Positions 2,651 through 5,757 of a stretch of DNA of 5,757 nucleotides are shown here, one piece after another (position 1 is the first letter of the stretch; every line of letters begins with the position of its first letter). The position numbers and the translations under genes were made by a program. The notes below the pieces were generated by a model. The model was not told the DNA's origin. It did not search any database and was given only the letters and a program-made list of their open reading frames with translations. Origin of the DNA: Oscillospiraceae bacterium (GTDB taxonomy: Bacteria > Bacillota_A > Clostridia > Oscillospirales > Oscillospiraceae); NCBI GenBank assembly GCA_902795095.1, contig CADBKB010000092.1:1-5757 (forward strand), read 5' to 3'.

Positions 2651-3424
2651 TCAGATCTCCTGGGGCTCCATGGCGTCGTGCAGAGTATCTGTGATCGCGC
2701 CGCGGAAGATGTTGTCGGCGTGGGTATGGACGATGTTCAGGCCGGGGGCCACGTGCTTGAGCTCCATGTTGCCGTCCATGTAGACGTCGACGTCCAGCAT
2801 GAAGCCCGGCTCGTCCACGGTCTGGCGGGTCTTGTTGTTGACCTTGTGCAGAACGCCGGGGCCGCACTTGATGTTGCAGCGGGCGCCGCCGGGCAGGGCC
2901 AGGTTCACGGTCTGGTGCGCTTCGCTGAAGGCGCCCTCGGGCACGTCCTCGTCGGCCAACAGGCCCAGGAAGCCGGGCTGGATCAGCTCCCGCCAGGGCA
3001 CATCCTCAAGCTCCAGGCGCTTGCGGCTGAAGGCGTTGATGTAGCGCAGGCCGATGCGATTGAAGCAGGCGGGCTGATACACGCCGATCACATGGGCGAT
3101 GACCCGGTCCAGCCGCTTGGCGAAGTCCTCCCAGGTGGAATAGCGGTGGGTGGACAGGGACACGAAGCTGCGGGTGAGGTTGACCTTCCAGCCGCCGTCC
3201 AGGGAGACGAATTGGTGATTTTTCACCGTCTCCTTCGGTGCGTTGGCCTGGGCGGGGGGACGCTCCTCCTTCACGGAGTAGTTGGGATAGTCCCCGCGGA
3301 TCAGTTCCTGGAACTCATAGGGGGACTGGTTCTCGATCTTCAGGATCACGGGAAAACGGAGCTGGCAGACCACCTCGATCAGCTGCGGCTTGCCGTAGCG
3401 GCAGCGTTCTGCATTGGAAAACAT
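2651..3424 (-). CDS. TIGR04255 family protein, function unknown
   Basis: A 257-residue protein resembling the sporadically distributed TIGR04255 family, whose function is unknown. Family-like features are the N-terminal GKPQLIEVVCQLRFP (11-25), followed by a tyrosine-rich segment with DYPNYSV (45-51), then a central FNRIGLRYINAF (121-132) with its typical RxGLRYIN core, and a C-terminal half of alternating beta-strand-like segments ending in HTHADNIFRGAITDTLHDAM. It has no signal peptide, transmembrane segment or obvious catalytic motif, so it is probably a soluble cytoplasmic protein. I chose the ATG at 3424 because it has GAAAGGA (complement of 3434-3440) nine bases upstream and sits just downstream of a strong promoter. 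A start at 3568 would lie upstream of that promoter. It appears monocistronic, with its own promoter and terminator, and is divergent from the hydrolase-dUTPase gene. No neighbour suggests its function. Confidence 0.85.
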   Translation of the reverse strand: MFSNAERCRYGKPQLIEVVCQLRFPVILKIENQSPYEFQELIRGDYPNYSVKEERPPAQANAPKETVKNHQFVSLDGGWKVNLTRSFVSLSTHRYSTWEDFAKRLDRVIAHVIGVYQPACFNRIGLRYINAFSRKRLELEDVPWRELIQPGFLGLLADEDVPEGAFSEAHQTVNLALPGGARCNIKCGPGVLHKVNNKTRQTVDEPGFMLDVDVYMDGNMELKHVAPGLNIVHTHADNIFRGAITDTLHDAMEPQEI

Positions 3425-3463
3425 GGGAACACATCCTTTCGCGGAGGATCGCTTTTTATAAAT

Positions 3464-3492
3464 AGTATAGCGAACGCGCAGAAAGTTTTCAA
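3464..3492 (-). promoter_or_regulatory. Sigma-A promoter of the TIGR04255 gene
   Basis: On the minus strand, TTGAAA (complement of 3487-3492) and TATACT (complement of 3464-3469) are separated by exactly 17 bases. Each box is one mismatch from consensus, so this should be a strong promoter. Transcription would start near 3457, giving a leader of about 33 nt before the ATG at 3424. Its -35 box lies 5 bp from that of the divergent hydrolase-dUTPase promoter. Confidence 0.8.
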
Positions 3493-3497
3493 GGGTG

Positions 3498-3526
3498 TTG
3501 GCGTTTTTTGCCCGATGTGCTATAAT
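3498..3526 (+). promoter_or_regulatory. Sigma-A promoter of the hydrolase-dUTPase gene, extended -10
   Basis: TTGGCG (3498-3503), a 17-base spacer and a perfect TATAAT (3521-3526), preceded by TG at 3518-3519 in the extended -10 position. The start site would be near 3533, about 22 nt before the chosen GTG start. This rules out the upstream in-frame GTG at 3495, which lies before the promoter. Confidence 0.8.
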
Positions 3527-3540
3527 CAGAAAAAACGATC

Positions 3541-3546
3541 GGGAGG
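3541..3546 (+). promoter_or_regulatory. Shine-Dalgarno site that fixes the hydrolase-dUTPase start
   Basis: GGGAGG lies eight bases before the GTG at 3555-3557. It is the only strong Shine-Dalgarno site downstream of the predicted transcription start and upstream of the first transmembrane residues. It therefore selects GTG 3555 over the longer frame opening at 3495. Confidence 0.8.
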
Positions 3547-3554
3547 TGGGCGCT

Positions 3555-4922
3555 GTGATCTGGATCATTGCTGCCGCGGCGCTGATCGCGCTGGCCTTGA
3601 TCGCGGGCTATGTCGGGTTCCGGGAGGCCTGCGGCTGGGGCCGGCGGATCGATCCGCTGGATCCGCAGACCTATGAGAAGGGCATCTATGCCAAGAACGG
3701 TAAGATTCTCCATGAAAACGCCAAAGCCCTCGCCGAGCTCCCGGCGGAGGACGTTTACGTCACGAGCTTCGACGGCCTGCGTCTGCACGGACGGCTGCTG
3801 CCGCTGGACGGCGCGAAGGGCACGATTCTGCTGTTCCACGGCTATCATTCCTTTGCCGATGTGGACTTCGGCTGCGCCGTGCCTCTGCTGCGGGAAATGG
3901 GCTATCAGCTCCTGCTGGCGGACGAGCGCGCCCACCAGGACAGCGAAGGGAAGTATCTCACCTTCGGCGTGAAGGAGCGGCGGGACGTTCTGACCTGGGC
4001 GACGGCCATGTCCGAGCGCTTCGGCCCGGCGCACCCGCTGTATCTGCAGGGCATTTCCATGGGCGCGTCCACGGTGCTCATGGCCTCGGATCAGGTGTTC
4101 CCGGCGAGCGTCCGGGGCATCGTGGCCGACTGCGGCTTCACCGCTCCGGCGGAGATCGTTCGCCGGGTCATGGGCGCGATGAAGGTGCCGGTGTTCCCGA
4201 TGCTGTATCTGACGGAGCTATGGTGCCGGCTGCTGGGGGGCTTCTCCCTGTGGGGATATTCCACGCAGAAGGCCCTTTCCCGGTGCCGGCTGCCGGTGCT
4301 CCTCGTCCACGGCAAGGCCGACGGCCTCATTCCCTGGCAGATGACCCAGCGCAGCTATGAGGCCTGCGCCTCGGAGAAAACCCTGCTCTACGTCGAAGGC
4401 GCCGGCCACGGCGAAAGCTTCCTGGTTGACCGCCCCGCCTGCGAGCGGGCCCTGCGGGAATTCTTCGGAAAGACGGAGGGGAAGCTCCCGGTGCGCGTGC
4501 AGCTGCTGCGCGAAAGCGCGGCCCTGCCGGTCTACGGCTCCGCCTCCGCCGCGGGCGCGGACCTGCGGGCCTGCCTGGACGCGCCGATCACGATCGGCCC
4601 CGGTCAGACGGCCATGATCCCCACGGGCCTGGCGCTGGAGCTGCCGGTCGGCTGGGCGGGCCTCATCTATGCCCGCAGCGGCTTGGCGGGCAAGCGCGGT
4701 CTGGCCCCGGCCAACAAGGTCGGGGTGGTGGACGCGGACTATCGAGGCGAGGTCCTGGTGGCCCTGCACAACCACGGAACGCAGCCCCAGAGCGTCGAGC
4801 CCGGCGAGCGTATCGCCCAGCTGGTGCTGGCAAAGGCGCCCCAGGCGGCCTTCACCGTTGCCGAGCAGCTCAGCGATACCGCCCGGGGCGGCGGCGGCTT
4901 CGGCTCCACCGGAAAAAAATAA
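3555..4922 (+). CDS. Membrane-anchored alpha/beta hydrolase fused to dUTPase
   Basis: One 455-residue frame encodes two enzymes. Residues 2-20 are an uncharged hydrophobic helix followed by arginines (R23, R30, R31), fitting a membrane anchor. Residues about 35-307 are an alpha/beta hydrolase of the YqkD/COG1073 type: oxyanion-region FHGYHS (94-99), nucleophile elbow GISMG with Ser168, acid Asp256 in HGKADGLIP, and His285 in GAGHGE. The triad is intact, but the substrate is unknown. Residues 313-455 are a complete dUTP diphosphatase (dUTP to dUMP and PPi): motif 1 AGADLRA (333-339), motif 2 ARSGLAGKRGL (373-383), motif 3 GVVDADYRGE (390-399, catalytic Asp393 and base-selecting Tyr396), motif 4 GERIAQLV (417-424) and motif 5 RGGGGFGSTG (444-453). 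Only about six residues link the domains. The GTG start follows GGGAGG, and no convincing terminator follows the stop. The domain calls are firm; the reason for the fusion is unknown. Confidence 0.92.
   Translation: MIWIIAAAALIALALIAGYVGFREACGWGRRIDPLDPQTYEKGIYAKNGKILHENAKALAELPAEDVYVTSFDGLRLHGRLLPLDGAKGTILLFHGYHSFADVDFGCAVPLLREMGYQLLLADERAHQDSEGKYLTFGVKERRDVLTWATAMSERFGPAHPLYLQGISMGASTVLMASDQVFPASVRGIVADCGFTAPAEIVRRVMGAMKVPVFPMLYLTELWCRLLGGFSLWGYSTQKALSRCRLPVLLVHGKADGLIPWQMTQRSYEACASEKTLLYVEGAGHGESFLVDRPACERALREFFGKTEGKLPVRVQLLRESAALPVYGSASAAGADLRACLDAPITIGPGQTAMIPTGLALELPVGWAGLIYARSGLAGKRGLAPANKVGVVDADYRGEVLVALHNHGTQPQSVEPGERIAQLVLAKAPQAAFTVAEQLSDTARGGGGFGSTGKK
4475..4493 (+). promoter_or_regulatory. 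dut: Possible internal ribosome binding site and GTG start for free dUTPase
   Basis: GGAGGGG (4475-4481) sits nine bases before an in-frame GTG (4491-4493) exactly where the dUTPase domain begins (VRVQLL). Initiation there would give a 143-residue protein, the usual length of a stand-alone trimeric dUTPase. The site could be active, a relic of a once separate dut gene, or chance, because the same bases encode Glu-Gly in GC-rich DNA. Sequence alone cannot decide. Confidence 0.4.
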
Positions 4923-4943
4923 TCCATTTTATTGAAAATTTCA

Positions 4944-4980
4944 TTAGAAATTCAGAAAAACTTGTGGTAAACTGTATATA
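4944..4980 (+). promoter_or_regulatory. Probable promoter of the CarD-like gene
   Basis: The 94-bp gap after the dUTPase stop is much more AT-rich than the rest of the window. Two -10 candidates overlap. One is the extended -10 TG-G-TAAACT (4965-4973), with a weak -35 TTAGAA (4944-4949) 18 bases upstream. The other is TATATA (4975-4980), with TTCAGA (4951-4956) 18 bases upstream. Neither is close to consensus, so the region is supported better than the exact boxes. Read-through from the hydrolase-dUTPase gene is also possible, since no terminator separates them. Confidence 0.4.
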
Positions 4981-5016
4981 GAAGCGATATCACTGCGAAA
5001 TAGTTCGGAGGTTTCT

Positions 5017-5541
5017 ATGTATCAGGTCGGCGATTATCTGGTTTACGGGATGGAGGGCGTCTGCCGCGTCGCGGACGTGGGGCACCCGAAGCTCTCGGGG
5101 GTGAGCCGCACGCAGCTCTACTATACCCTCGTACCCGTCGGCAAGACCGATTCCATCTATATCCCCGTGGATACCCGGGTTTATATGCGCCGTCCTATGG
5201 ACCGGGCGACGGTACAGAGCCTGTTGGAGGCGCTGCCCGCGCTCCCGGTGTGCACCGATCTGCCCGCCGACGCCCGCATGCTGGCGCCATATTATCAGGA
5301 AATCCTCGCCTCCCACGACGCGCAGCGCCTGGCCAGGCTGTATAAGACCATCTGGTGCAAGCAGCAGGCCCTGGCCGGCAGCCGGCGCTCGCTGAGCGTT
5401 ACGGATATGCGCTACTGGAAGCAGGCGGAGACCCTGCTGCTGGGGGAGGTCGCCTTTGTGCTGGGCGTTCCCTATGCCGAGGCGGTCCGGGACGTCAGGC
5501 AGCGTCTGGACGAAGCTTCGCCAGCCACTCCAGCACCTTGA
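5017..5541 (+). CDS. CarD/CdnL-family transcriptional regulator
   Basis: A 174-residue cytoplasmic protein of the CarD/CdnL/TRCF family, whose members bind the RNA polymerase beta subunit and affect open-complex stability. Residues 1 to about 58 fit the Tudor-like polymerase-interaction domain: YQVGDYLVYGMEGVCRVADV (2-21), then YYTLVPVG and the SIYIPVDT strand (46-53). Residues about 60-165 fit the alpha-helical C-terminal domain, with LARLYKTIWCKQQALAGSRR (105-124) and a MRYWKQAETLLLGEVAFVLG helix (131-150) as in Firmicutes homologues. The tail ends in an Ala/Pro-rich ASPATPAP. The ATG has GGAGG (5007-5011) five bases upstream. Its last 47 bp overlap the end of spoIIR on the other strand, and its likely terminator lies inside spoIIR. 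DNA targets cannot be read from the sequence, and clostridial genomes may carry several paralogues. Confidence 0.9.
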   Translation: MYQVGDYLVYGMEGVCRVADVGHPKLSGVSRTQLYYTLVPVGKTDSIYIPVDTRVYMRRPMDRATVQSLLEALPALPVCTDLPADARMLAPYYQEILASHDAQRLARLYKTIWCKQQALAGSRRSLSVTDMRYWKQAETLLLGEVAFVLGVPYAEAVRDVRQRLDEASPATPAP

Positions 5542-5757
5542 ATTTGATTTCGTAATGATCCGCCTCGGTGATGAGGCGGATCTCTTTTTCCGTAAAGCCT
5601 GCCCCGGCGGCCACCGCCTCCAGCTCATCGGCGCAGGCGCTGCGGCACAGGGTGGGGAAGCAGACGCACCACCAGTTGTGCCCCTCGCCGCTGCCGATGC
5701 GCACCCGCAGCGCGGTGTAGGGGCCGGCGGGCAGGGAAAAGGTATCGTAGATCCGGG
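5495..5757 (-). CDS. spoIIR: Stage II sporulation protein R, C-terminal part (partial)
   Basis: The frame enters from the right edge and runs to a TGA at 5495-5497, giving the last 86 residues. It begins RIYDTFSLPAGPYTALRVRI, followed by the SpoIIR hallmark GSGEGHNWWCVCFPTLC, with the paired tryptophans, FP and both cysteines in their usual context. It ends with HYEIKFKVLEWL, also typical of the family. SpoIIR is made in the forespore and secreted into the intermembrane space, where it activates the protease SpoIIGA to process pro-sigma-E in the mother cell. A GTG at 5704 is not the true start, because conserved family sequence continues upstream of it. The N-terminus with its signal peptide, and the promoter, lie outside the window. 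The gene overlaps the CarD-like gene tail-to-tail. Confidence 0.93.
   Translation of the reverse strand, partial: RIYDTFSLPAGPYTALRVRIGSGEGHNWWCVCFPTLCRSACADELEAVAAGAGFTEKEIRLITEADHYEIKFKVLEWLAKLRPDAA
5557..5590 (+). terminator. Intrinsic terminator of the CarD-like gene, inside spoIIR
   Basis: A perfect 10-bp stem, GATCCGCCTC (5557-5566) against GAGGCGGATC (5573-5582), encloses a 6-base loop and is followed on plus by TCTTTTTC. It begins 15 bp after the CarD-like stop codon, a normal distance for an intrinsic terminator. On the minus strand the same bases encode the EIRLITEAD segment of SpoIIR, and on that strand the stem is not followed by a T-run. It should therefore act only on plus-strand transcripts. 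Confidence 0.75.

Follow-up and report, generated by a model that had tools for sequence, protein, structure and literature searches.

The enzyme dUTPase keeps uracil out of DNA, and in its trimeric form it is usually a stand-alone protein. In a stretch of 5,757 nucleotides from an Oscillospiraceae bacterium, analysed here at its full length and called the window, one open reading frame holds a trimer-type dUTPase and, ahead of it, an alpha/beta hydrolase. The locus raises three questions: whether the joined gene is real, how it arose, and whether the two enzymes have anything to do with each other. The fusion gene (3555..4922, plus strand) runs uninterrupted from a GTG start to a TAA stop and encodes 455 amino acids. 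Its Shine-Dalgarno sequence, GGAGG (3542..3546, plus strand), lies 8 nt before the GTG, and the anti-Shine-Dalgarno energy at this start (-15.3) was the strongest among the four gene starts scored in the window. Farther upstream is a sigma-70-type promoter-like site (TTGGCG-17-TATAAT; 3498..3526, plus strand; 10 of 12 matches), the sole plus-strand site found by the promoter motif scan of 3400-5060, a region in which two sites were observed on both strands together as compared with 0.2 expected. An alternative start at GTG 3495 was rejected, since the codon at 3555 has a ribosome-binding site and sits downstream of the promoter-like site. The divergent upstream neighbour encodes a TIGR04255 family protein (2651..3424, minus strand; the listed open reading frame extends to 3568, and ATG 3424 is the start chosen in the analysis), and the downstream neighbour a CarD-like/TRCF-RID protein (5017..5541, plus strand). 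On the minus strand, positions 5495-5755 encode stage II sporulation protein R, of which the C-terminal portion lies in the window and the rest beyond its edge; judged from this gene, the lineage may be one of spore formers.

A sequence-only reading of the window had described a Ser168-Asp256-His285 hydrolase and a five-motif dUTPase in a single frame, joined by about six residues, and the reading frame, the family models and a structure model all bear this description out. On the plus strand, the protein begins with an N-terminal membrane helix (residues 2-26; 3558..3632), followed by the alpha/beta hydrolase domain (residues 61-307; 3735..4475), a linker (residues 308-313; 4476..4493) and the trimer-type dUTPase domain (residues 314-455; 4494..4919). 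The hydrolase half was recognized by the Pfam models Hydrolase_4 (47.4 bits, cut-off 27) and Abhydrolase_1 (35.9, cut-off 25.8), the C-terminal half by the Pfam dUTPase model (90.4 bits, cut-off 22) and by NCBIfam dUTP diphosphatase (160.7 bits, cut-off 103). The codon of Ser168 (4056-4058) lies within GISMG; those of Asp256 and His285 are at 4320-4322 and 4407-4409. In the dUTPase half the sequences AGADL, ARSGL, GVVDADYRG (including the motif-3 catalytic Asp), GERIAQ and RGGGGFGSTG, which we take to be dUTPase motifs 1-5, are intact and in order, starting at residues 333, 373, 390, 417 and 444. The monomer structure model had a mean pLDDT of 92.0. Its N-terminal half has the alpha/beta hydrolase fold, and its C-terminal half has the beta-rich dUTPase fold, matching the Burkholderia enzyme 4lhr with a TM of 0.93 (by target length) and an rmsd of 1.3 at 42% identity. 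Between the final hydrolase helix, whose last residue is 307, and the first dUTPase strand, which starts at 314, lie the six residues of the linker. The C-terminal arm bearing motif 5 is free and, on its own in a monomer prediction, of low confidence. From its family membership the fused dUTPase would form a homotrimer, and such a trimer would carry three anchored hydrolases.

Neither half appears to be decaying. The catalytic motifs of both domains were present in all 12 fused proteins compared, the window's among them, and the Ser-Asp-His triad with GxSxG was found in these 12 and also in P0016, G007 and G059, the relatives described below. Between the window and its counterpart in SIG463, an Oscillospiraceae metagenome-assembled genome (MAG), dN/dS was 0.19 for the hydrolase core and 0.11 for the dUTPase, with 0.57 for the anchor and stalk; in this one sequence pair, both halves look to be under purifying selection. 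Decay of either half was rejected on these motifs and ratios, in agreement with the earlier argument from intact active sites.

One objection to a joined gene is that an assembly or sequencing error created it. Points in favor of an error are that the nearest other species (genome G007) has two genes separated by a stop codon, that a near copy of one fused protein (P0013, 302 amino acids, near copy of P0003) ends before the linker, possibly at a contig end, and that a related record, P0017, looks like a chimeric assembly. A search of protein databases for the two-domain architecture, as the sequence-only reading had proposed, returned it at full length in 11 protein clusters, aligned over 95-100% of the query, among the best 120 of 2660 matches. 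Among the matches listed, one cluster (P0002) was 99% identical to the window's protein and, in a database clustered at 90% identity, is in effect the window's own; the ten others were 73-84% identical. One of these (P0003) represents 27 sequences, which come from 22 contigs and three different sources. The in-frame linkers differ in length among the fused proteins, and SIG463 (G001; locus L001) carries the fusion between the same neighbours as the window, in the order asnS, asnA, TIGR04255, fusion, CarD-like, SpoIIR. For the clade as a whole, the 11 clusters among the matches listed and the synteny of SIG463 refute an assembly error, the chance of which we put at practically nil. The earlier reading had held that relatives with two separate genes and a stop codon near 4490 would make the fusion an artefact or a strain-specific stop loss; such a relative exists in G007, but the fusion in ten other clusters and in a syntenic genome leaves no room for that conclusion. 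The fusion is thus real and inherited, and it is not peculiar to one strain or one assembly.

The scope of these searches was as follows. Protein searches scored the candidates sharing most words, and the best 120 of 2660 and the best 120 of 3614 matches were considered. A search of 198 relatives gave 162 matches at E 1e-30 or better; among the matches listed, the whole query was spanned only in SIG463 and G007. The DNA context of fused genes was that of two genes, from the window and SIG463. The record P0017, a 1,115-base contig, is a probable chimera, with a window-type N-terminus, a P0003-type middle and a diverging C-terminus; on this example, short metagenome contigs call for caution.

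G007 is the sole other genome of SIG463's genus in the species-level genome set, and it holds the same locus in an unfused state: the TAA of the hydrolase gene, 15 bases containing GAGG, and the ATG of dut, all in one frame. The TIGR04255 and CarD-like genes occupy the same places as in the window, and the arrangement TIGR04255, fusion or unfused pair, CarD, SpoIIR is common to SIG463 and G007. The distance from the residues FF (FL in G007), which close the last hydrolase helix, to the residues RVQ of the first dUTPase strand is 9 codons in the window and 13 in SIG463, as compared with 12, counting the stop, in G007, which places the linker where the spacer used to be. In a hydrolase tree of 51 rows, which left out P0013, P0017 and most of the 120 matches listed per search, the 12 fused proteins formed one clade (support 100/99) inside unfused relatives. 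Nearest to this clade were the unfused P0014 and P0015 (93/87, under the strict support threshold), then a group with G007. In a dUTPase tree of 44 rows, G007 joined the fused clade (96/88), with the fused clade itself weakly supported (88/66; bootstrap not settled). Four of ten chosen other-fusion proteins (P0182, P0202, P0206, P0211) were absent from the latter tree, the motif pattern having found no match in them (seen by eye for P0202). Taken together, the trees and the unfused G007 locus are most simply explained if the fusion is a derived state and both halves descended vertically. Two end states were observed; the step between them was most likely the fusion of neighbouring genes through loss of the hydrolase stop codon.

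These domain kinds seem to have been joined a second time. P0016 (463 amino acids), known from a single contig of 5,920 bases, has the same architecture at 47% identity and with a longer linker, and it falls elsewhere in both trees; in the hydrolase tree the long branches of its group and of G059 meet, which calls for care with their placement. As judged from these placements, P0016 is a second, phylogenetically independent fusion, on the strength of that one contig, so that fusion of these two domain kinds appears to have two origins. No prior description of a hydrolase-dUTPase fusion was found among the papers listed by one open-access library. The earlier suggestion of a lineage-specific fusion is supported, and that of an undescribed one holds within those listings.

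Fusion of the two genes may not have silenced the old start of dut. A GGAGG (4475-4479) lies 11 nt before an in-frame GTG at 4491, and this possible internal dUTPase start (4475..4493, plus strand) is at the region of the unfused dut start. Two products could then be made, the anchored fusion and, by way of the retained dut ribosome-binding site, a free dUTPase, with mixed trimers of both. When the 25 start-like codons lying in frame inside the window's fusion gene were scored, the GTG at 4491 had the strongest anti-Shine-Dalgarno energy (-10.6); its homologue in SIG463 ranked first of 27 (-10.0), and the unfused dut ATG of G007 scored -11.8. The window and SIG463 sites are homologous, however, and hence not independent. 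The spacing of 11 nt exceeds the 8 nt of the unfused dut, five of the 12 fused proteins (P0004, P0005, P0008, P0011, P0012) lack, at the protein level, the Glu-Gly that the motif encodes, and no plus-strand promoter-like site was found within the fusion gene. The score is also no strict guide, given that the called start of the G007 hydrolase itself scored +1.0. We regard a second product as unlikely. Were it made, mixed trimers might set the amount of dUTPase and the number of hydrolase heads on the membrane, and so have made it less costly to tie an essential trimer to a membrane protein; this, too, we hold to be rather doubtful.

A further question is on which side of the membrane the domains of the fusion lie. 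Lysine and arginine were counted in up to 15 residues on each side of the anchor core. The window's anchor has an Arg following its hydrophobic core and no charge ahead of it. Of 13 fused proteins, P0016 among them, 12 had more Lys/Arg on the C-terminal side, the exception being a 3:3 tie in P0007, the upstream start of which is doubtful. The same side was richer in 99 of 101 strong-helix relatives, with two ties; these were drawn from 108 scored (P0014-P0121), P0016 and the probable chimera P0017 included. By the positive-inside rule, the Lys/Arg-rich flank of a membrane helix lies inside. The fusion is thus predicted to be anchored with its N-terminus outside and its C-terminus inside, both domains facing the cytosol. 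The cytosol is where a dUTPase has to be, and the fusion is in keeping with the inward orientation predicted for the related hydrolases.

Whether the dUTPase half works in the cell can be judged from the rest of the SIG463 genome. In this MAG, the completeness of which is not given, the fusion was the only match to the trimeric dUTPase family PF00692. The dimeric dUTPase family PF08761 had no match there, although the control for this search was weak, the family being seen in 1 of 14 control genomes and at a score under its cut-off, and no DCD match was found apart from the fusion. An incomplete assembly could be hiding a second dUTPase. A uracil-DNA glycosylase is present. So is a MazG-type pyrophosphohydrolase, which could hydrolyse some dUTP, and thus dUTP removal may not depend on the fusion alone. 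PMC3360063 reports dUTPase as essential in Mycobacterium smegmatis and cites its essentiality in E. coli and yeast. The lone dUTPase found in SIG463, essentiality elsewhere, and purifying selection together suggest that the fused dUTPase is likely a working enzyme.

A working dUTPase does not imply that the hydrolase serves it. The sequence-only reading had suggested that trimerisation could tie nucleotide-pool sanitation to a hydrolysis. In a rival account built on such a tie, the fusion would have been kept since an anchored dUTPase beside the hydrolase links membrane-side hydrolysis to nucleotide-pool cleaning or, in a variant, since three hydrolases per trimer provide the link. Consistent with either form, the fusion has been kept, its two active sites intact, in 11 clusters (among the matches listed) that are as little as 73% identical to the window's protein, the same domain kinds were fused a second time in P0016, and in genome G059 the hydrolase and dut genes are adjacent yet separate. 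Against them, a hydrolase gene adjoins dut in just two of 25 related dut loci (G007 and G059), NrdG is the commonest recognised upstream neighbour (7 of 25), P0016 is one sequence on one contig, and dUTPase has been fused to many other partners. We know of no pathway shared by dUTPase and such a hydrolase. Given the rare adjacency and the fusions of dUTPase to NrdG, Sel1-repeat and CoaBC-type partners, the proposed tie is not supported. We consider the link between membrane-side hydrolysis and pool cleaning improbable, and the variant with three hydrolases per trimer no less so. The 25 loci (L002-L006, L051-L070) were taken, with a few kb on either side, from strongly matching genomes and were not drawn at random: L058 and L059 were chosen for a hydrolase-dut pair already known there, and L051-L057 for a match that seemed to reach upstream of dut, although none of these seven showed a hydrolase.

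The varied partners were counted, by Pfam column, in the best 120 of 236 dUTPase-bearing proteins of roughly 250-800 amino acids. Among these 120, the partner was an alpha/beta hydrolase in 12 (P0002-P0012, P0016), a radical-SAM pair in 7 (two were checked and are NrdG), a CoaBC-type domain (PF04127) in 20 and Sel1 repeats (PF08238) in 43. Some of the remaining listed fusions resemble chimeric contigs, as with P0140 and P0134, which differ in their N-terminal domains and have nearly the same dUTPase. From the varied partners and the rare adjacency, the hydrolase looks like one more neighbour that became attached, and dUTPase seems to be an easy fusion partner.

Upstream genes were run against family models for the seven NrdG-like genes, one PAP2 gene (L064) and the hydrolases of G007 and G059. 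NrdG, the activator of anaerobic ribonucleotide reductase, is encoded just upstream of dut in L003, L004, L005, L051, L060, L062 and L068, and by family models NrdG-dUTPase fusions also exist (P0134, P0173). Joining two proteins of dNTP metabolism makes clearer functional sense than joining a hydrolase to dUTPase. Single chains of Sel1 repeats and dUTPase are frequent (P0138 and 42 others among the 120 of 236 listed). A gene for a PAP2-type membrane phosphatase lies near dut in L031/L058 (G059), L004 and L064, arranged as PAP2-hydrolase-dut, PAP2-NrdG-dut and PAP2-dut, respectively; PAP2 is a recurring dut neighbour without obvious reason.

Set beside known systems, the C-terminal half shares the five motifs and free C-terminal arm of trimeric dUTPase (Dut; PF00692, NF001862/TIGR00576; Burkholderia 4lhr, E. 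coli 1dud), differing in the membrane helix and hydrolase domain that precede it. It also shares a superfamily fold with dCTP deaminase and DCD-DUT. The bifunctional DCD-DUT enzymes have one active site in one domain, and a DCD-type bifunctional enzyme was rejected here, the dCTP deaminase model TIGR02274 scoring 36.1 bits as compared with a cut-off of 92.8. The N-terminal half is 22% identical to the esterase/lipase Pf2001 of Pyrococcus furiosus (5g59), a 274-residue chain without a dUTPase domain. Much closer (55-67% identity) are unfused N-anchored alpha/beta hydrolases (P0014, P0015, P0018, P0019, P0024 from G007, P0026, P0032), which share the anchor, triad and length but end before the linker. 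Other proteins have a dUTPase joined in frame, to partners that are not alpha/beta hydrolases: NrdG in P0134 and P0173, both checked; a CoaBC-type domain in P0206, P0208 and, by Pfam, 18 others among the 120 of 236 listed; and Sel1 repeats, with the dUTPase coming first in P0138.

The account that we consider probable is that of an inherited two-domain protein, made from neighbouring genes by stop loss and consisting of an anchored, cytosolic, trimeric dUTPase and an independent hydrolase. The ancestor would have had a hydrolase gene, encoding a membrane-anchored enzyme of the serine esterase-like kind, directly ahead of dut and in frame with it; once the stop codon of that gene was lost, the 15-base spacer would have become a linker. 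The single N-terminal helix is predicted to hold the protein in the cytoplasmic membrane, with both catalytic domains cytosolic. The dUTPase halves would assemble as a homotrimer, the free arm with motif 5 completing the active site of a neighbour subunit, and would hydrolyse the dUTP of the entire cell into dUMP and PPi, as intact motifs and the status of sole dUTPase found in SIG463 suggest. The hydrolase half would act as a Ser-Asp-His esterase largely independently of the dUTPase. Fusion would thereby put both enzymes in one expression unit and anchor the dUTPase.

The locus offers a clean before-and-after view of gene fusion, with unfused and fused states at the same place within one genus and a spacer where the linker now is, and in the one fused genome searched (SIG463, a MAG of unstated completeness) no dUTPase other than the fused enzyme was found. 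The domain architecture is new, the likely route to it an ordinary one. The fusion also acts as a natural reporter of topology: a dUTPase half that is active in the cell would require a cytosolic C-terminus, in which case the related N-anchored hydrolases probably face inward as well.
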